DNA from: Proteinivorax tanatarense
Lineage (GTDB): Bacteria; Bacillota; Proteinivoracia; Proteinivoracales; Proteinivoracaceae
Direction of reading: 5' to 3'
Length of the DNA stretch: 64,000 bases
NCBI RefSeq assembly: GCF_040267685.1
Contig: NZ_CP158367.1
Location: 1,798,001 to 1,862,000 of the forward strand
The translations under genes were made by a program, and so were the position numbers. Shown here one piece after another: positions 10,220 through 43,639 of the stretch. Within the stretch, counting starts at the first letter, position 1, and every line of letters begins with the position of its first letter. The notes under the pieces are model-generated. The model ran no database searches and was not told the origin of the DNA. It worked only from the letters and a program-made list of their open reading frames with translations.

Positions 10220-10753
10220 TTATTTTCCTGCTATTTTAGCGCCATTTAATGCCTTTGTAATAAAGTTTGTGGAAATCCCAACAAAAATTCCTGTAGGAAT
10301 GGCAAGAGCTATTAAAAGTGGCTGTGAAATAGCAGCTAAACGGGTATCTAGTAGATAAATCACAACGGCAATTTGAGCTAAGTTATGTGTTATGGCTCCA
10401 ATTATACTTATCCCAATATTACTCAAATGTTTATTGAACAATTTCATAGCAATTGCCATACTTAAAGTACTAACTATAGCACCACCTAAGCTTAAATAAA
10501 AAACAGGGCTTAAAAATTTCCCAGATAATAAAGAGGCAAGGATTACCCTCATTACACCTACTGCAAAGCCACTTTTCAAGCCAAACATATTTAATGTTGT
10601 TAAGGTAAATATATTGGCTAAACCGAGCTTTACAGGCATTCCCATAAATATTGAAGCTAAAGGGGCTATTCTCCCTTCAATAATTGTAAGGATTGTTGCC
10701 ATAGCTATAAACAACGATAATAAAACTAATTGCTTTACAAAACCTTTTTGCAT
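10220..10753 (-). CDS. Gx-transporter/heptaprenyl diphosphate synthase component I family membrane protein
   Basis: A membrane protein of about 177 residues with five to six hydrophobic segments. Features include IEGRIAPLASIFMGMPVKLGLANIFTL and GAITHNLAQIAV, typical of the family labelled heptaprenyl diphosphate synthase component I, now usually treated as an S-component-like Gx transporter. The ATG at 10753 has AAGGGTGAGG just upstream; a GTG at 10762 is the alternative. In Clostridia it is often beside a NusG-domain-II protein and ApbE, near rnf genes, exactly as here. Its substrate is unknown; a redox-cofactor precursor is a guess. Confidence 0.78.
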   Translation of the reverse strand: MQKGFVKQLVLLSLFIAMATILTIIEGRIAPLASIFMGMPVKLGLANIFTLTTLNMFGLKSGFAVGVMRVILASLLSGKFLSPVFYLSLGGAIVSTLSMAIAMKLFNKHLSNIGISIIGAITHNLAQIAVVIYLLDTRLAAISQPLLIALAIPTGIFVGISTNFITKALNGAKIAGK

Positions 10754-10775
10754 TTTCCTCACCCTTAAATTGTTA

Positions 10776-11150
10776 TTAAAAATCTACATCTGGTTGTTCC
10801 CCACCTTCAATTCTAACAAATACCCTATTGGGTAAACATGTTATACTTTGTCCAGGCCTCGTTGCTCTGCCAAAATTTACACATATTTGGTCAGGGCAGT
10901 CTGAATGCTTTACAGTCACATAGTCTTCACCAAGCAAAACAACAGTTTCACCAACAGGACCGTTAAAAACAATTTCTTCTGACCTATCTTCTTCAAATAA
11001 AGGTACACTACCCCATTTTTCACCTTCTTGTTCAATGATAACTCGCGCTCCTTCTACTTCTTGGCCTGAAAGAAATAGATAATACATCCCTATACCAAAA
11101 AGAGAAAGAATTAAAACTATACCTATTAAAATTAAATCACCTTTTTTCAT
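10776..11150 (-). CDS. NusG domain II-containing membrane-anchored protein
   Basis: A 124-residue protein: N-terminal membrane anchor (about residues 5-27), then a small beta-rich extracytoplasmic domain with HSDCPDQICVNFGRATRPGQ and SITCLPNRVFVRI. Those cysteine-bearing motifs are diagnostic of the NusG domain II (KOW-like) family found near ApbE and FMN-binding proteins. The function is unknown. The two conserved cysteines and its position suggest a role in the extracytoplasmic flavin/Rnf system, which is inference. AGGAGTG precedes the ATG at good spacing. Confidence 0.8.
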   Translation of the reverse strand: MKKGDLILIGIVLILSLFGIGMYYLFLSGQEVEGARVIIEQEGEKWGSVPLFEEDRSEEIVFNGPVGETVVLLGEDYVTVKHSDCPDQICVNFGRATRPGQSITCLPNRVFVRIEGGEQPDVDF

Positions 11151-11170: not shown

Positions 11171-12199
11171 CTACTCTAAGCTCTGATTAGGTTGAAACTT
11201 CTCTTTCATGTTTGAACTTTTAAATACATTTCCTTCTGAATCTACAATTAAAACCTCTACTTCATCAATCTCTTCAACAAAATCAACAGCTTGTTCAGGG
11301 TCATAATTAAATAATGCTGTTGATAAAGTGTCTGCTATTGTAGCATTAGGAGCTGAAATCGTTACTGATTGAATTTTTTGAGATGGGTAACCTTTTTTAG
11401 GATCAATTATGTGATGAACCCGAATATCATCCGCCATAAAGTAACGTTCATAATCACCAGAAGTAACAACAGAATTAGAGTTTGTGTTTACAACTCCTAT
11501 AAAGTTTCCCCTCTCCATACGAGGGTGTTGCACACCAATACGCCATGGTGTGCCATCAGGCTTATCCATTAAATAGACATCTCCACCCCCGTTTACAGAC
11601 CCATATTTAATTCCGTGTTCCATCATTTCTTCTGCTGCTTTATCAACAATATAACCTTTGGCAATTGCACCTAAGTCTAGTTTCATACCTTCAGTTTCTA
11701 GGAAAGCAGTATTTTTTTCATTATCCAAAACTAGTTTATTATAATCCACCAGTTCTTTTAAATGCTCTACCTCTTTTTCCGACGGAACCACTTGATTACT
11801 CCAACTATATGCTTCTAGTAATGGACCAATGGTTATATCAAACCTTCCTTCTGTCTTTTCTCCATAATTCTTGCCTTTTTCCAGAAGATTAAAAGTTTCT
11901 TCGGAAACCTTGACTGGTTCAATACCTGCGTTATTTGTGATGTTATAAACATCGCTACCCTCGATATGGGCACTCAATAGCTTTTCCAAACGTTCTACTT
12001 CCTTTTGAGCGGCTTGAAATGCTTCTTCAGCTTTTTGGGGATCATCTGTATGACCTGTAAGTTCTACTAGTGTATCCATTGCAAAAAAATGGTGATTGTA
12101 TACTTCCAGTTCAGCACTGGAAGAACTACAACCAACAATAGCTAAAGACATAAAAAGTAAAGCTGCAAGATATTTTGTTGTTTTCATTATTGTTCCCAT
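11171..12199 (-). CDS. apbE: FAD:protein FMN transferase ApbE (lipoprotein)
   Basis: A protein of 342 residues from the ATG at 12199, which AAAGG precedes by 11 nt. It has a lipoprotein signal with lipobox IVGC, so the enzyme is anchored outside the membrane. ApbE motifs include FAMDTLVELTGH near the mature N-terminus, GAIAKGYIVDKA and SVNGGGDVYL in the middle, and STALFNYD near the C-terminus. ApbE uses FAD to attach FMN through a phosphoester bond to Thr in D-x-x-(S/T)-G-A-(S/T) motifs. The obvious clients are encoded nearby: RnfD (one site) and the four-domain RnfG (four sites). Confidence 0.95.
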   Translation of the reverse strand: MGTIMKTTKYLAALLFMSLAIVGCSSSSAELEVYNHHFFAMDTLVELTGHTDDPQKAEEAFQAAQKEVERLEKLLSAHIEGSDVYNITNNAGIEPVKVSEETFNLLEKGKNYGEKTEGRFDITIGPLLEAYSWSNQVVPSEKEVEHLKELVDYNKLVLDNEKNTAFLETEGMKLDLGAIAKGYIVDKAAEEMMEHGIKYGSVNGGGDVYLMDKPDGTPWRIGVQHPRMERGNFIGVVNTNSNSVVTSGDYERYFMADDIRVHHIIDPKKGYPSQKIQSVTISAPNATIADTLSTALFNYDPEQAVDFVEEIDEVEVLIVDSEGNVFKSSNMKEKFQPNQSLE

Positions 12200-12236
12200 T
12201 ATTAAATTCACCTTTCTTATATACAGTATTTAATAG

Positions 12237-13151
12237 TTACCGTCCACAATCCTGAGTTTTTCCTTGTAGGGTTTCCAAAGCATGTTCTAATATTGGAGAT
12301 ATTATACCCATACTTTCCTTTACAGCTTTTTCACTTCCCGGCAAGTTAATAATTAATGTATTGTCGCTGATGCCACATATCCCCCTAGTCAAGTAAGCTT
12401 TAGGGGTATATTTTGAAGAATTAGATCTAATCATCTCCATGATTCCTGGTACCTCTTTATCAACAAAAGACTGAGTAGCTTCTGGAGTAATATCTCTTGG
12501 AGATAAACCAGTGCCTCCAGAAGTAATTACAATAGATAAGTTAGAGTCAACCCACGTTTGTAGTTTTTCTGTTATCTTATCATGCTCATCAGGCACAATA
12601 TCCATTTGCTCTACTTTTATCCCAATTTGAGCCAGTCCCAGTTTTGCTGCAGGCCCAGCAGTATCCACGCGTTCACCATTAAATCCTTTATCGCTTACTG
12701 TTAATATAGCTGCTGTATAGCTAGGGATTATTTCTATAGGATCACCAGGCTTTATTTTACCTTCTTTTAAAACAGTGGCGAATATACCTTCTTTAGGCAT
12801 AACACAGTCACCAGCTTGGTAGTAGATTGCACACCTTTCATGACATGTTTTCCCAATCTGTGTTACTCCTAAAACAACTTCACCTCCTATTTTTAACCTT
12901 GTCCCTAACTCAAGTTTATTAAGTTCAATACCTTCTGTAGCAATATTTTCAGCGAAACTTCCGAACGTTACATCTAACCCTTGTCGTCTCATTTTTTCTA
13001 TACTCTCATTGGCTAACAAACTTATTTGCCTATGCCAGTTCCCACCATGAGCATCATTTACAATGCCATATCCTTTTTTAATTATAACTTCTGGTTGTAC
13101 TGTTTTTTTTACCCCTTTTTTCTCACTGATAGCGATTGCTAGTACTTTCAC
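12237..13151 (-). CDS. MOSC domain - MogA/MoaB molybdopterin biosynthesis fusion
   Basis: A 304-residue two-domain protein. Residues 1-145 form a MOSC domain (sulfur-carrier family related to the Moco sulfurase C-terminus), with conserved GIVNDAHGGNWHRQISLL and a Cys in GKTCHERCAIY. Residues 148-300 are a MogA/MoaB domain with the molybdopterin-binding SGGTGLSPRDITPEAT and NLPGSEKAVKE motifs; this half adenylates molybdopterin before metal insertion. Such fusions are known in Clostridia. It should serve the molybdenum or tungsten cofactor of the formate dehydrogenase at 21.4-24.1 kb. The start is GTG, with GAGGAGTG about 8 nt upstream. Confidence 0.9.
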   Translation of the reverse strand: MKVLAIAISEKKGVKKTVQPEVIIKKGYGIVNDAHGGNWHRQISLLANESIEKMRRQGLDVTFGSFAENIATEGIELNKLELGTRLKIGGEVVLGVTQIGKTCHERCAIYYQAGDCVMPKEGIFATVLKEGKIKPGDPIEIIPSYTAAILTVSDKGFNGERVDTAGPAAKLGLAQIGIKVEQMDIVPDEHDKITEKLQTWVDSNLSIVITSGGTGLSPRDITPEATQSFVDKEVPGIMEMIRSNSSKYTPKAYLTRGICGISDNTLIINLPGSEKAVKESMGIISPILEHALETLQGKTQDCGR

Positions 13152-13219: not shown

Positions 13220-13230
13220 ATAAAGACTAA

Positions 13231-13266
13231 AAAATAAGCGCCCTAATTTTAAGGACGCTTATTTTT
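13231..13266 (-). terminator. Terminator of the rnf operon
   Basis: Stem AAAATAAGCG...CGCTTATTTT extended by TCCT/AGGG wobble pairs, with T residues on the minus-strand side, located 2 nt past the rnfB stop codon. Confidence 0.82.
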
Positions 13267-13267
13267 A

Positions 13268-14068
13268 TTATAACTGTTCTATTGCATGAGTTGGACATTC
13301 CTTTACACAAATTCCGCAACTAATACAAATAGTATTGTCTATCTTTGCCAACCCATCTTCCATTTTAATACAATCTTTAGGGCAGGCTTTTGCACACTTA
13401 GAACATCCTATACAACCCACTTTACATACTTGCATTACTTTCTTAGCTTTATCATTCGAGTTACACATAACATGCACGTCAGAACCTTGTGGAATCATTC
13501 CTATGACATCTTTAGGACAAGCAACTACACATTTTTTACATCCAGTACAAAGTTCTTGATCTATTATAGGTAACCCATTATCTCCCATAACTATAGCATC
13601 AAAGGGACAAATTCGTTCACATGTTCCAAGACCCATACAACCATAGCTACAAGCCTTGGGTCCACCATCAATGAGCATTGCTGCCTTACAATCTTTTACA
13701 CCTTCGTAACGAAATTTATCTTTGGCTACTTCACTAGTACCATGACACTTTACTTTAGCCACCATTGGTGTATCTGAAGCAGCTTCCATATCGGTCTTTC
13801 CAATTATGTCAGCCAATTCATTGGCTACCTTTTTCTTTCCAACAGGACATCCATCTACCGGTGCCTCACCTTTAAGTACTCCTTCGGCAAAACCACTGCA
13901 ACCTGGATAACCACAGGCTCCACAATTAGCACCTGGTAGTGCTTCTATTAACTCATCAAGCTTAGGGTCAGTTTCAACCGCAAATACTTTTGAAGCTCCC
14001 GCCAAAATTGCTCCAAAAATAATACCTATAGACCCTAAAGCAATAACTGCGCTTAACATATTTAACAC
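13268..14068 (-). CDS. rnfB: Rnf complex subunit RnfB (polyferredoxin)
   Basis: A 266-residue subunit with an N-terminal membrane helix, then the CGACGYPGCSGFAEG iron-sulfur domain (about residues 48-85). Four ferredoxin-type CxxCxxCxxxCP-like motifs follow (GTCERICPFDAI, CTGCKKCVVACP, CIGCSKCAKACP, CISCGICVKECP). This predicts about five [4Fe-4S] clusters, more than in proteobacterial RsxB and like the larger RnfB of acetogens. RnfB is the entry point for electrons from reduced ferredoxin. It is last in rnfCDGEAB. Confidence 0.96.
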   Translation of the reverse strand: MLNMLSAVIALGSIGIIFGAILAGASKVFAVETDPKLDELIEALPGANCGACGYPGCSGFAEGVLKGEAPVDGCPVGKKKVANELADIIGKTDMEAASDTPMVAKVKCHGTSEVAKDKFRYEGVKDCKAAMLIDGGPKACSYGCMGLGTCERICPFDAIVMGDNGLPIIDQELCTGCKKCVVACPKDVIGMIPQGSDVHVMCNSNDKAKKVMQVCKVGCIGCSKCAKACPKDCIKMEDGLAKIDNTICISCGICVKECPTHAIEQL

Positions 14069-14080
14069 CCCCAGTAACTA

Positions 14081-14650
14081 TTAAATTACAAAACCTGCAA
14101 AAGCCATTGCCAATATAGCAGCTGCTATAAACGCTGATGGCACACCAGCAAAATATTTATTCGAACCAGTTAATTCTAGTCTTTCTCTAATACCAGCAAG
14201 CACAACCAACGCTAAAGTGAATCCTAAAGCAGCTCCTACTGCATGAATGATAGTTTGAGTTAAGGTATAACCAAGGTCAATATTTAAAATAGCCAACCCT
14301 AAAACAGCACAGTTCGTTGTTATTAACGGTAAAAAGATACCTAGAGCTTGATAAAGGGTAGGACTTACCTTTTGAATAACCATTTCTACAAACTGCACCA
14401 ATGAAGCAATTACCAGAATAAAAGCAATTGTTTGTAGATATTGTAAATCAAAGTTTTCTAAAATCAATCTATCAATATACCAGGTGATAATAGAAGCGAT
14501 GGTCATAACAAACATAACCGCCATACCCATCCCGATAGATGTTTCTATTTTTTTAGATACTCCAAAAAACGGGCAAATACCTAAAAACTGATTTAACACA
14601 AAGTTGTTTACAAAAATAGCGGCAAAAAAAATAGATAACAATTCAGTCAT
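14081..14650 (-). CDS. rnfA: Rnf complex integral membrane subunit RnfA
   Basis: A 189-residue protein with six predicted membrane helices. Conserved segments include NNFVLNQFLGICPFFGVSKK, holding the Cys that in Rnf/Nqr structures helps ligate an intramembrane iron-sulfur cluster, and TTNCAVLGLAILN, holding its partner Cys. RnfA and RnfE form the pseudo-symmetric core that couples electron flow to Na+ or H+ transport. The gene lies between rnfE and rnfB with short gaps and a good ribosome site (GGGAGGA). Confidence 0.96.
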   Translation of the reverse strand: MTELLSIFFAAIFVNNFVLNQFLGICPFFGVSKKIETSIGMGMAVMFVMTIASIITWYIDRLILENFDLQYLQTIAFILVIASLVQFVEMVIQKVSPTLYQALGIFLPLITTNCAVLGLAILNIDLGYTLTQTIIHAVGAALGFTLALVVLAGIRERLELTGSNKYFAGVPSAFIAAAILAMAFAGFVI

Positions 14651-14668: not shown

Positions 14669-15262
14669 CTACTGTTTAGAGGTTCGTCTCATAGTGACAG
14701 CATTTACTATTCCTAGCAGTAATCCTAAACTTAGAAAAGCACCAGCAGGCTGCAAAAATAGTAAAGCCCCTTCAAATAGCTGAACACCAAAAAGTTCACC
14801 TGTTCCTAAAAAGTGTCTGAAAAATCCTAGTACAGTTAAGCTCAAAGTAAACCCTAGACCCATGCCCAAAGCATCGACTATAGAAGGCATTACTTTTTCT
14901 TTAGAAGCAAAGGCCTCAGCTCTTCCTAAAATAGTACAGTTTACTACAATCAAAGGTATAAAAAGACCTAAGTTGTTGTGTAGTTCTACAAAGTAAGCTT
15001 CCATAAACATATCTACCATAGTAACAAAAGTTGCGATAATCACAATATAAGATGGTATTCTTACCCTACTGGGTATAAAGTCTTTAAAAAGAGATACCAC
15101 TATATTTGAGCCTAGCAACACAACTAATGTAGCCATACCCATACCAAACCCGTTTGCTGCGCTAGTAGTTACAGCCAAAGCAGGGCAAAGGCCTAGTAAA
15201 AGCACAAAAACAGGGTTTTCTTTAAATATTCCTTTTAAAAAGTTATTTAGCAACTTGTTCAC
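14669..15262 (-). CDS. rnfE: Rnf complex integral membrane subunit RnfE
   Basis: A 197-residue homologue of RnfA with six membrane helices. It carries the paired cysteine motifs LLGLCPALAVTTSA and VVNCTILGRAEAFASKE. In the assembled complex RnfE and RnfA face each other in opposite orientation. Start and stop are within 20 bp of rnfG and rnfA, as expected for a single operon. Confidence 0.96.
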   Translation of the reverse strand: MNKLLNNFLKGIFKENPVFVLLLGLCPALAVTTSAANGFGMGMATLVVLLGSNIVVSLFKDFIPSRVRIPSYIVIIATFVTMVDMFMEAYFVELHNNLGLFIPLIVVNCTILGRAEAFASKEKVMPSIVDALGMGLGFTLSLTVLGFFRHFLGTGELFGVQLFEGALLFLQPAGAFLSLGLLLGIVNAVTMRRTSKQ

Positions 15263-15265
15263 CTC

Positions 15266-16723
15266 CTAGTTAGCTTCTAAAGGCAAAGCATCAATTACAG
15301 CATCAATAAGACCGCTAGCTGAATAAGTGGCCCCAGTCTCTATATCAACAGCAAGAGATTGCTCTGATTTTATTTCTTCTACTATGTGAGGCAACTGTTC
15401 ATCAGCAAAATTTGGAGTATCATCATGATCAAAGGTAAGATCTGTAATTTCTCCACCTTGAACAGTAACCTCTACGGTAATTGTAGATTCGAACCCTTGT
15501 CCTTCACCTGTATAGGTACCATCATCTATATCTGATAGTGTAACTTCTTCTAAATTTAAGCTTACTTCCTCGGCATCATCATCGCTATCATCTTTAGAAG
15601 TAGCAGATCCGCTAGCTTGAAGAAGAGCCTCTTCCACAGCAGCCACTAAGGCCTCACTAGAAACAGTAGCACCTGTGCTTGTATCTACATTAAGACTTTG
15701 CAACTCTTTAATTTCTTGTGCTACCGTTGGCAGTGCATCATCAGCATAATCTGGAGTATCATTGTGAGTGTAAGTTATATCAATTACTTCCCCACCTTCT
15801 ACAACCACTTCAACTTCTAGAACACCACCAAAACCATCAGCTTCCCCAGCGTAAGTTCCGTCTTCAAGATTGTCCATATCAACTTCAGCTTCTCCACCAA
15901 ACTCTGATAAAGCATCTTTTACTGCTTCAATAATTCCTTCACTTGTGGCGGTTGCTCCACTTACTGTATCCACGTCAAGTTCTTGTTCATCAACCATTGA
16001 AGAAGGCACTTGTTCTAGAGCAGGGTCAGCAATCCCATCAGTTTCAGTATGCTCTAGCACTTCAACACTAATTAACTCTCCTCCGCTAACCTCTATAGAA
16101 ACACTTATTTCTCCAGCATATCCTTGACCAGCACCTTCATATACTCCATCTGGGATTTCTGCTAGATCTATAACAACTTCGTCTGTAACTCCTAATGCTT
16201 CAGTAAGATCTTCCAAAGCATTTCTAGCTCCAGTAATTACCGCTCTTGAAGAAGCAGTAGCTCCTGTTATTACATCTATATCACCAAACCCTTGCTCTAG
16301 GTCTCTACCTTCTAACTTCTTTACATATTCATCATCAAAGGCCAGATCACCTAAGCCAGGAGTTTCCGCATGACTTAAAATAGCAATTCCAGTAATTTCA
16401 TAGTCAGTATTTACCCCAACTAGCATATTTATTGGGTCAGTTCCGTAACCTGAAGCTGCAACTTCAACTACGTATCCAACCAAATCACCATTTTTAAAAG
16501 CTTCACTATAAATTTCCTTGGGTTCTTCACCATCTATAGGTTCATCTTCCATCACTGCTTCAAACTTGTCTGCTTCTATTACTTCTGCTAGAAGTTCATT
16601 TCTTCTTTGCTCAATATTTTCTTCTATAATTGGAGCCGTAAAATCGTTAATAGCAGACAAAAGGCCTGCAGATACAGCAGCAATTAAACCAAGTACAGCA
16701 ATCATTTTAATTATATCTTTCAT
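15266..16723 (-). CDS. rnfG: Rnf complex subunit RnfG, enlarged with four FMN-binding domains
   Basis: A 485-residue protein; RnfG is usually about 180-210. An N-terminal membrane anchor (residues 5-25) and a canonical RnfG domain (about 75-175) are followed by three more FMN_bind domains at about 190-275, 286-371 and 398-482. The last two are separated by a Ser/Asp-rich linker. Each carries an ApbE-type site: D150..TGAT156, D252..SGAT258, D347..TGAT353 and D460..TGAT466. RnfG normally holds one covalent FMN outside the membrane and passes electrons towards RnfD/RnfC. Four FMN groups would make an extended flavin wire. The exposed part is very acidic, as in proteins of salty or alkaline habitats. 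The reading frame is continuous and the operon position is normal. Confidence 0.95.
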   Translation of the reverse strand: MKDIIKMIAVLGLIAAVSAGLLSAINDFTAPIIEENIEQRRNELLAEVIEADKFEAVMEDEPIDGEEPKEIYSEAFKNGDLVGYVVEVAASGYGTDPINMLVGVNTDYEITGIAILSHAETPGLGDLAFDDEYVKKLEGRDLEQGFGDIDVITGATASSRAVITGARNALEDLTEALGVTDEVVIDLAEIPDGVYEGAGQGYAGEISVSIEVSGGELISVEVLEHTETDGIADPALEQVPSSMVDEQELDVDTVSGATATSEGIIEAVKDALSEFGGEAEVDMDNLEDGTYAGEADGFGGVLEVEVVVEGGEVIDITYTHNDTPDYADDALPTVAQEIKELQSLNVDTSTGATVSSEALVAAVEEALLQASGSATSKDDSDDDAEEVSLNLEEVTLSDIDDGTYTGEGQGFESTITVEVTVQGGEITDLTFDHDDTPNFADEQLPHIVEEIKSEQSLAVDIETGATYSASGLIDAVIDALPLEAN

Positions 16724-17722
16724 CTACTTCACCTCCCCAAATGTACGAGGAATAGTAAGTCGATCTAAAATCGGCGTTAGAGCATTCATAAATAACACTG
16801 CATAAGTTAATCCCGCTGGTGCTTGGGCATAATACCTAATCAAAATTAAAATTAAGCCACAACCTATTCCGTATATCAACCTAGCATTTTTCGTAGTAGG
16901 GCTAGTAACATAACAGGTTGCCATATAAATAGCACCCATTAAAGCTGAACCCGAAAGCACTTGAAATAATGCTTCATCTAGTCCTGCAGATAAAAATCCT
17001 ACTAAACCTTCAAACTCACCTGCAAAACCGGTGTGAATAAAGGAAAATACAACCATAGCACCTAAAAAACCTCCTGGAATTCTCCAATCTATATGACCCT
17101 TATATAAAAGATAAATACCTCCAATAATAAGTGCCAAAGCAGATGTTTCACCTAAACTACCAGGTACAGTTCCTATAAACAACTCCCATAAGGTAGCAGC
17201 TTCTCCTTGTAATGGAGTTGCACCTGTGGTTGTATCTACAAATGTACCAGTAGGCTCCCAATTTGTCATAAGAGTTAAATAAGAAAATGTTAAAAAGCCT
17301 CGACCCACTAAAGCTGGGTTAAATGGATTTTTACCTAAACCTCCAAAAGCATGCTTTCCGATCAAAATTGCCACAGCACTACCTAAGATTGGCACTGCCC
17401 ATGGAAGTGTCCATGAACCCCCAATAGAAGCCATCATACCAGTTGCAGGCGGTAAACTTAGACCCAACAACAGACCCGTCACAGCAGCACTCCCATCTCC
17501 TAAAAAAGCGCTGATTTTAGGCTTCCTTGAAACTACTAACCATTCAAAAAATAAAGCTGATATTAAACTTAGGGACAATACAATAGCACTAGCCCAACCA
17601 AAGATTATAATAGAGGCAATGGTAGCTGGAACTAAAGCAACTACTACATCCCACATTATATAGTCTATATCTCTAGGACTACGAATATGCGGGGAAGGTC
17701 CCACTACAAACTTTTTGCTCAT
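16724..17722 (-). CDS. rnfD: Rnf complex membrane flavoprotein subunit RnfD
   Basis: A 332-residue polytopic protein of the RnfD/NqrB family. It shows the N-terminal SPHIRSPRDIDYIMWDVVVAL, a GKHAFGGLGKNPFNPALVGR motif (about residues 122-141), and the covalent FMN site DTTTGATPL with Thr169. FMN at this Thr and riboflavin elsewhere in the protein form part of the transmembrane electron path. The gene abuts rnfG (1-bp spacing between stop and start regions). Confidence 0.96.
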   Translation of the reverse strand: MSKKFVVGPSPHIRSPRDIDYIMWDVVVALVPATIASIIIFGWASAIVLSLSLISALFFEWLVVSRKPKISAFLGDGSAAVTGLLLGLSLPPATGMMASIGGSWTLPWAVPILGSAVAILIGKHAFGGLGKNPFNPALVGRGFLTFSYLTLMTNWEPTGTFVDTTTGATPLQGEAATLWELFIGTVPGSLGETSALALIIGGIYLLYKGHIDWRIPGGFLGAMVVFSFIHTGFAGEFEGLVGFLSAGLDEALFQVLSGSALMGAIYMATCYVTSPTTKNARLIYGIGCGLILILIRYYAQAPAGLTYAVLFMNALTPILDRLTIPRTFGEVK

Positions 17723-17744: not shown

Positions 17745-19037
17745 CTACTTTTTTGCTTTTTTAGAGCTAACTTCCGCTTTTCCCTGCCTTATTAAATGTA
17801 CTAACGGAATCTTTGATGGACACATATATGAACAGCATCCACACTCTATACAATTAAACAAATGAAGCTCTTCCGCTTCTTTAAACATTTCTTTTCTTGA
17901 ATAAGCTGCAAGATAATTTGGCATCAAGCTCATGGGACATGCGTCAACACATCTTGCACATCTTATACAGGTTCTTTCTTCAACTAACCTAACCTCATCT
18001 TCTGTAAGGACTAGGATTCCCGATGTGCCTTTTGTTATAAATTCGTCATCTAAAGAATCTATAGCTCGTCCCATCATAGGACCACCAGATATTACTTTAG
18101 CAGCATTGTCTTTTAAACCACCACAAGCTTCAACAACTTCCTTGAAAGTCGTTCCCACTTTTACAATGATATTTTGTGGTTTTTCTATGCCATTTCCTGT
18201 AACTGTGATTCCTCTTTCATACAAAGGTTTCCCCTCTTCTATTGCGTCAGCCAAAGCAGCAGCTGTAGAAACATTACTCACTACTGAACCAACATCGACA
18301 GGAAGTCCTCCTACGGGCACTTCTTTGTCTAAAATAGCTTTAATTAACTGCTTTTCCCCTCCTTGAGGGTATTTAACCTCTAACGTTACAAGTTCAACAG
18401 ACGAATCACCTTGTATTGCATTGCCAATAGCTTCTATGGCATTGGGCTTGTTTAGTTCAATCCCAATATATCCCTTAGTAGCACCTGTAGCTTTCATCAA
18501 TGCTTTTAAGCCTTCCACTACCTTTTGTGGCTGTTCTACCATAATTCTATCGTCGATAGTAAGATATGGTTCACACTCAGCACCATTTAAAATAACTGTA
18601 TCAATTTTTTTTCCTTCTGGCGCTTTCATTTTGACATGGGTAGGAAATGCAGCTCCACCCATCCCAACAATTCCAGCTTCTTTGGCAATCTCAATGATTT
18701 CCTGGCTAGAAATTTCTTTTAAACTTCTAGCTTCTTTAGGCTCAAACCTATTATCACCATCACTTTTGATAGTGATACGTTCTTCATTAACATCAACTAC
18801 TTCACCAGAAATACTGGAATGGATAGGTGCAGAAACAAAACCTTTTGCTTCTCCTATTTTTTGTCCAGTTATTACTTGTTCTCCTTTAGATACAAGTGGT
18901 TCGCAAGGAGCACCAATGTGCTGCTGTAGCGGTATCACTACTTGCTTAGGATCATCCATTACATCAATTTGCTTTTTTTCAGAAAGCTCCTTGTTATAAA
19001 GAGGATGAATCCCACCTTTAAAACTTCTCTTTTCCAA
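17745..19037 (-). CDS. rnfC: Rnf complex NADH-binding subunit RnfC
   Basis: A NuoF-like peripheral subunit with an N-terminal barrel-sandwich domain, an FMN/NADH-binding segment around GIVGMGGAAFPTHVKM, an SLBB domain, and two [4Fe-4S] motifs near the C-terminus (CIRCARCVDACPM and CIECGCCSYMCPS). It transfers electrons between NAD and the membrane arm. Start: the first possible codon is a GTG at 19046 fused to the AAAGGGG ribosome site, which leaves no spacing. A TTG at 19037 has 8-nt spacing and gives MEKRSFKGGIHP, close to the usual RnfC N-terminus, so I prefer it. First gene of the operon. Confidence 0.93.
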   Translation of the reverse strand: MEKRSFKGGIHPLYNKELSEKKQIDVMDDPKQVVIPLQQHIGAPCEPLVSKGEQVITGQKIGEAKGFVSAPIHSSISGEVVDVNEERITIKSDGDNRFEPKEARSLKEISSQEIIEIAKEAGIVGMGGAAFPTHVKMKAPEGKKIDTVILNGAECEPYLTIDDRIMVEQPQKVVEGLKALMKATGATKGYIGIELNKPNAIEAIGNAIQGDSSVELVTLEVKYPQGGEKQLIKAILDKEVPVGGLPVDVGSVVSNVSTAAALADAIEEGKPLYERGITVTGNGIEKPQNIIVKVGTTFKEVVEACGGLKDNAAKVISGGPMMGRAIDSLDDEFITKGTSGILVLTEDEVRLVEERTCIRCARCVDACPMSLMPNYLAAYSRKEMFKEAEELHLFNCIECGCCSYMCPSKIPLVHLIRQGKAEVSSKKAKK

Positions 19038-19054
19038 GTTTTTCACCCCTTTAA

Positions 19055-43380: not shown

Positions 43381-43612
43381 AAAAACCCCTTTCATCCATA
43401 GGACGAAAGGGGTTCAGCCTCCGTGGTACCACCTAAGTTCTGATATAATATACCAGCTCTCGGATATGATAACGGGCTAAAATGCCCGGCTTCCCTTAGC
43501 AATGCGTAGGGGAAACAGTTCTCAGGCGACTTTCGGAACCACTTATTGGGGAAACTCACAGCTTATAATCTCCCTCTCTGAACAACAGTAAGTACCTACT
43601 CCTCCTGATCAA
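43381..43612 (-). promoter_or_regulatory. T-box leader of valS with terminator
   Basis: On the minus strand the leader ends with the T-box sequence AGGTGGTACCACGG (43421-43434), followed by a terminator hairpin (GGACGAAAGGGGTT pairs with AACCCCTTTCATCC, 43381-43414) and T residues. Upstream lies a long Stem I region (GAGAGGGAGATTATAAGCTG...). A GUC triplet at 43528-43530 is a plausible valine specifier. Uncharged tRNA-Val would stabilise the antiterminator. Confidence 0.9.
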
Positions 43613-43639
43613 AACCTTTATATGTATAGTTTAACAATA

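Follow-up and report, generated by a model that had tools for sequence, protein, structure and literature searches.

Why would the RnfG subunit of an Rnf complex carry four FMN-binding domains, and where would electrons that reach the outer ones go? The question is raised by rnfG of Proteinivorax tanatarense (15266..16723, minus strand), which lies in the window, by which we mean the whole 64,000-nucleotide stretch of DNA that was analyzed. From an ATG start the gene encodes 485 amino acids, in which the open reading frame, Pfam, NCBIfam and an AlphaFold2 model delineate an N-terminal helix anchor followed by four FMN_bind domains. Our best explanation, which on balance we consider probable, is that this RnfG is the extracytosolic end of the Rnf complex grown to four beads with covalent FMN, and that the added beads form a side branch to acceptors outside the membrane.

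The rnfG gene and its flavin-attachment neighborhood

An earlier note on this DNA had described a normal anchored RnfG domain followed by three further FMN_bind domains and had proposed a domain search, and the search bears the description out. Pfam FMN_bind matches the protein in four stretches (whole-protein E 2.6e-61), and in a whole-genome scan the domains scored singly at E 4e-18, 3e-17, 2.4e-13 and 3e-11, all above the curated cut-off, which rules out chance motifs in rnfG. The NCBIfam model for RnfG (TIGR01947) scores 139.3 bits on the 485-aa protein, against a cut-off of 102. D1 (aa 72-176; 16196..16510, minus strand, as are all features of this region) is the canonical RnfG flavin domain, matched by TIGR01947 over aa 9-171 and by the RnfG structure 7zc6_G with E 3.7e-18. 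The three extra domains are D2 (aa 185-277; 15893..16171), which aligns with PDB entry 8p2b at E 2.1e-14 and ungapped over aa 195-276, D3 (aa 280-372; 15608..15886; FMN_bind E 2.4e-13) and D4 (aa 392-485; 15269..15550; FMN_bind E 3.0e-11), all three being recognized by their pocket residues as well.

The four flavinylation sites named by the note are all threonines within D-x-x-[ST]-G-A-T-x-[ST] motifs, namely DVITGATAS in D1 (Thr156, 16256-16258), DTVSGATAT in D2 (Thr258, 15950-15952), DTSTGATVS in D3 (Thr353, 15665-15667) and DIETGATYS in D4 (Thr466, 15326-15328), so that each extra domain has an intact [ST]GA[ST] core. The whole protein has no cysteine and thus no heme site (CxxCH), which rules out heme as a further cofactor of this RnfG.

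The gene sits in an intact and complete rnfCDGEAB cluster, with rnfC (17745..19046; TIGR01945, 533.8 bits) and rnfD (16724..17722; TIGR01946, 253.4 bits against a cut-off of 207.05) on one side and rnfE (14669..15262; TIGR01948, 247 bits against 213.4), rnfA (14081..14650; TIGR01943, 268.5 bits against 229.3) and a polyferredoxin-type rnfB (13268..14068; TIGR01944, 132.5 bits against 68.7) on the other; RnfD carries its own motif, DTTTGATPL, at Thr169. Directly after rnfB, a terminator-like hairpin of 15 pairs and a T-run (13230..13266) likely marks the end of the operon, a sign that is weak alone because the terminator scan overall finds no more sites than in shuffled sequence. Between rnfB and apbE lies a gene for a MOSC domain fused to a molybdopterin-binding (MoCF) domain (12237-13151, minus strand), and elsewhere in the window there is a T-box leader (43396-43621, minus strand; 118 bits).

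Downstream of the cluster is a set of genes suited to flavin attachment. The ApbE flavin transferase (11171..12211; PF02424, E 5.6e-83) is an apparent lipoprotein, judging from the sequence IVGCSS near its N-terminus, and is the only ApbE in the genome; its distance from rnfG, put at about 3 kb in the note, is confirmed as about 3.05 kb. It is followed by an anchored NusG domain II protein (10776..11150; PF07009, E 1.4e-25), which, by its position, may be EetA-like. Next is an EetB-family ECF-S protein (10220..10762; PF07456, E 3.5e-33), a candidate FAD exporter: EetB, the ECF-S subunit shown to export FAD in Listeria, is represented by PF07456, and EetB-family genes often adjoin rnf in Clostridia (PMC9973259).

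A collapsed or duplicated assembly at rnfG, which the note had raised as a possible source of the repeats, is unlikely, because D2-D4 are only 38-51% identical to one another as protein (61-65% as DNA), a search for long exact direct repeats came back empty, and a comparable multi-domain RnfG architecture is present in 12 other genomes of the class.

Predicted fold and flavin pockets

The AlphaFold2 model of RnfG, built on a 16-sequence alignment (mean pLDDT 81.2, pTM 0.42), has one N-terminal helix (residues 2-45), the RnfG domain D1 and then three compact beads. Its lowest-confidence parts are the linkers, that between D3 and D4 (374-392) being disordered, and the low pTM means that the beads are not fixed in position relative to one another. 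In each domain the flavinylation threonine opens the last helix of the model (H156, H258, H353 and H466).

Foldseek matched the model to RnfG of C. tetanomorphum (7zc6_G, rank 1), A. woodii and A. vinelandii, and also to 8p2b, the crystal structure of CbFMN4 domain 1 with its covalent FMN, at an rmsd of 1.4-1.5 Å, a TM score of 0.88 and 41-42% identity. The residues that contact FMN in that structure (Tyr11, Thr37, Leu40, Thr67 and Ser69) map in the gap-free alignment to Y202, T228, I231, T258 and T260 in D2, and their counterparts are F298, T323, Y326, T353 and S355 in D3 and F411, T436, F439, T466 and S468 in D4. As these are conserved or similar residues, the predicted flavin pocket is kept in all three extra domains, and the loss of the pocket that the note had considered is not what the model and the mapping indicate.

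Distribution of multi-domain RnfG

The length survey of rnfG suggested in the note shows that an extended RnfG is general in this class, being present in 13 of 13 genomes with two to five domains by motif, sequence and profile; the open frames span 277-573 aa in most of them, and up to 587 aa in one that is interrupted by masked bases. Bead number differs even within the genus, since the only congener (G001) has an RnfG with two domains, against four here, and the rest of its operon in the same order. In a sample of the phylum, 44 of 129 RnfG-type frames, or about one third, reach at least 260 aa, as do 35 of the 120 from outside the class. Of these extended frames 20 were inspected: in most of them the extra FMN_bind domains number one to four, a 580-aa protein with five domains being among them, and a few are fusions, or frames that are over-long and have a single domain. 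The extended RnfG is therefore not a novelty. A search of a plasmid collection with rnfG returned nothing that spanned 80% of the query, the matches being about as long as one domain or one RnfG.

Several other forms were noticed. Two single frames, in L028 (G051) and L102 (G227), are apparent RnfD-RnfG fusions, which end in an RnfG domain and also have the flavinylation motif or the N-terminus typical of RnfD. In L107, L108 and L117 RnfG has come to two domains in another way: the place of compact beads is taken by a second full-size RnfG-like domain, which starts about 170 aa after the first; the usual flavinylation motifs are altered in L108 and L117. Contig C2 of G063 holds at least four rnfG-type genes, with open frames of 580, 369, 187 and 177 aa.

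In a tree of the single domains the D1 sequences cluster together, and the D2 sequences of the class are neighbors at the root of the extra-domain section without forming one supported clade; on this placement we rejected the idea that the whole extension is a lineage-specific invention. In this tree, whose deep nodes are weak, the window's D3 and D4 pair as sisters with a support of 95, and one of them therefore arose by later duplication.

Tandem growth of this kind could be neutral or structural, the extra domains, flavinylated or not, merely extending or shielding RnfG, and a bead number that ranges from two to five and varies inside one genus is what such growth would produce, as are the few domains with a lost or changed motif (DTTTTATFT in D3 of G002; SGST in D2 of G008 and G009). 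We nevertheless give this reading little credence. Across the 59 domains compared, extra or stand-alone, the Asp of the motif never varies, and 57 have Thr as acceptor, the other two having Ser. These columns and the pocket rank with the best-conserved positions, and none of the 13 genomes of the class lacks D2, a pattern that would be unexpected for a mere spacer. The conservation of the Asp and acceptor columns, with so few changes, argues for selection on flavinylation of the extra beads.

The acidity of the protein follows another pattern. The note had remarked that the acidic surface would suit a saline or alkaline medium, and a link of acidity to the four-bead design is not borne out by the charge comparison: per 100 residues, the soluble part of RnfG has a net charge of about -21 in the window protein as in the congener with two domains, and of only -6 to -9 in several other relatives with four domains. 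Acidity thus follows lineage or habitat and not bead number, and we rejected it as a specific part of the multi-bead design.

Possible electron exits outside the membrane and comparison with known systems

In the side-branch mechanism that we favor, FAD would leave the cell through EetB and serve ApbE in loading FMN onto Thr156, Thr258, Thr353 and Thr466, as motif, fold and gene neighborhood suggest. D1 would keep the normal role of RnfG, taking electrons from RnfA/E to RnfD, and D2, D3 and D4, on their flexible linkers, would branch off from D1, so that electrons, rather than going back to NAD, could hop from the D1 flavin to one bead after another and reach acceptors outside the membrane. 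A flavin relay of this kind had been proposed in the earlier note; it matches a published proposal (PMC8238504) and the gene content makes it plausible, with acceptors that are so far candidates.

Two such candidates are encoded in the genome, both outside the rnf operon. One is an anchored, extracytosolic NrfA-like pentaheme cytochrome with one CxxCK and four CxxCH motifs (C1:631214-632470; L119:4215-5471), whose gene stands behind those for ResB and CcsA. The other is a 591-aa lipoprotein that joins FMN_bind to FAD_binding_2, a predicted extracytosolic FMN/FAD reductase (C1:2485206-2486981; L064:6207-7982). The remaining FMN_bind proteins are a 118-aa lipoprotein and a 251-aa lipoprotein with two domains, lipoprotein status having been read in each case from the N-terminal sequence. 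The gene of the 591-aa protein adjoins an apparent two-component system.

No match to the UbiA family (PF01040) was found in the genome, all 14 control genomes being positive, and the organism therefore probably synthesizes no quinone; neither was an NrfH/NapC-type quinol dehydrogenase (Cytochrom_NNT) found in it. Quinol is thus an unlikely donor to the outside enzymes, which makes the Rnf flavin chain a candidate donor and NrfA and the lipoprotein reductase plausible acceptors. A NapH-like membrane Fe-S protein (C1:571231) could be an alternative conduit for electrons across the membrane. A stronger form of the idea, which we regard as rather unlikely, is a quinone-independent anaerobic respiration in which the multi-flavin RnfG directly feeds NrfA, without NrfH, and the lipoprotein FMN/FAD reductase in a bacterium without quinone synthesis. 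If true, NADH and a respiratory chain of protein-bound flavins at the cell surface would both be supplied by one ion pump.

Against an outside exit, having these enzymes does not go with having more beads, as the congener G001 has both reductases and only two beads. Relatives in family f2 (e.g., G005, G006, G010 and G011) keep four or five beads, and in this family we found no NrfA and no complete other FMN_bind protein (one partial match, in G007), with at most one FAD_binding_2 protein, of NadB-like size. A lipoprotein FMN/FAD reductase or an FMN_bind partner is consequently rejected as the class-wide reason for the beads, remaining a possible one in the window genome, and the beads would serve something more general, such as diffusible or mineral acceptors or an electron store.

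As a store, the beads would load from D1 at times of strongly reduced ferredoxin and later return their electrons to RnfD, smoothing the pump with no need of an outside acceptor. The f2 relatives, with many beads and neither NrfA, nor a complete other FMN_bind protein, nor a second FAD_binding_2 protein, fit this well. We still hold such buffering to be decidedly unlikely: the three extra flavins would hold at most six electrons, a capacity that is small beside the ferredoxin and NAD pools, and an exit to soluble or mineral acceptors would not depend on a dedicated protein and is thus compatible with the missing partners. The one measured multi-FMN protein, SaFMN3, has a single potential of -184 mV for all its flavins (PMC10339131), which speaks against a directed chain and fits a store better than a directed wire.

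Since flavins that share one potential give a chain no built-in direction, electrons might also run inward, from an outside donor or a partner cell to reduced ferredoxin or NADH, and Rnf is described as reversible (PMC12174285). The genome, in a non-exhaustive search, shows outside reductases, that is, acceptors, and not outside oxidases of donors, and uptake seems very improbable. The same study of SaFMN3 found that the reduced protein reacts readily with O2 (PMC10339131), and the exposed flavins of RnfG would fit a surface sink for oxidants such as O2, which the reduced beads would consume, thereby shielding a strict anaerobe. However, reactivity with O2 in vitro is common among flavins and the locus has no pointer to oxidative stress, and the probability that we assign to this role is low.

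The side branch to outside acceptors remains the reading that we favor, and two features make it open to experiment. A clade with a multi-bead RnfG in every genome and two to five beads is a natural series for testing bead function, and a closed genome with outside reductases but without quinone synthesis removes the usual quinol donor, so that a second exit from Rnf becomes directly testable. A literature search returned no experimental test of the multi-flavinylated RnfG predicted in 2021.

That prediction describes multi-flavinylated RnfG in a number of RNF clusters and holds it likely to give electrons a second way to acceptors outside the membrane (Meheust et al., 2021, eLife 10:e66878, PMC8238504), and the four-bead RnfG is a well-formed case of the kind described there, an RNF cluster whose RnfG has more than one FMN-binding domain, with no difference in kind. 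To this the present analysis adds the class-wide survey with its varying bead number, the pocket mapping, the attachment kit downstream of rnf (ApbE, EetB and the NusG_II protein) and an apparently quinone-less genome with NrfA and a lipoprotein reductase. The Christensenellales forms in the same study add a multi-heme domain, whereas the RnfG of the window has four flavin domains and no heme. A 2024 follow-up gave beads-on-a-string models and called the function unclear.

Single-domain RnfG proteins (C. tetanomorphum 7zc6_G; A. woodii 9eri_G) share the N-terminal anchor, the D1 fold, the motif and the operon partners, but have about 190-207 aa, one FMN and no C-terminal beads. The beads themselves resemble those of CbFMN4 and SaFMN3 (8p2b, 8p2a; PMC10339131) in their compact fold, Thr site, pocket, flexible linkers and dependence on ApbE, whose co-expression leads to covalent flavinylation in both proteins, at three sites in SaFMN3; those proteins are not fused to RnfG, however, and their beads are more than 80% identical to one another, against 38-51% here. 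Flavin-based extracellular electron transfer in Listeria (Ndh2/DMK/PplA/FmnB/EetB) likewise uses an ApbE-type transferase and an EetB-family exporter for extracytosolic covalent flavins, but it is quinone-dependent, whereas in a genome without UbiA electron entry would be through Rnf; RnfG as a PplA was rejected, the PplA model NF041941 scoring 34 against a cut-off of 325. Methanosarcina reportedly (PMC6703419) also pairs Rnf with an extracytosolic carrier able to feed outside acceptors, there a separate multi-heme cytochrome and here flavin domains fused to RnfG itself.
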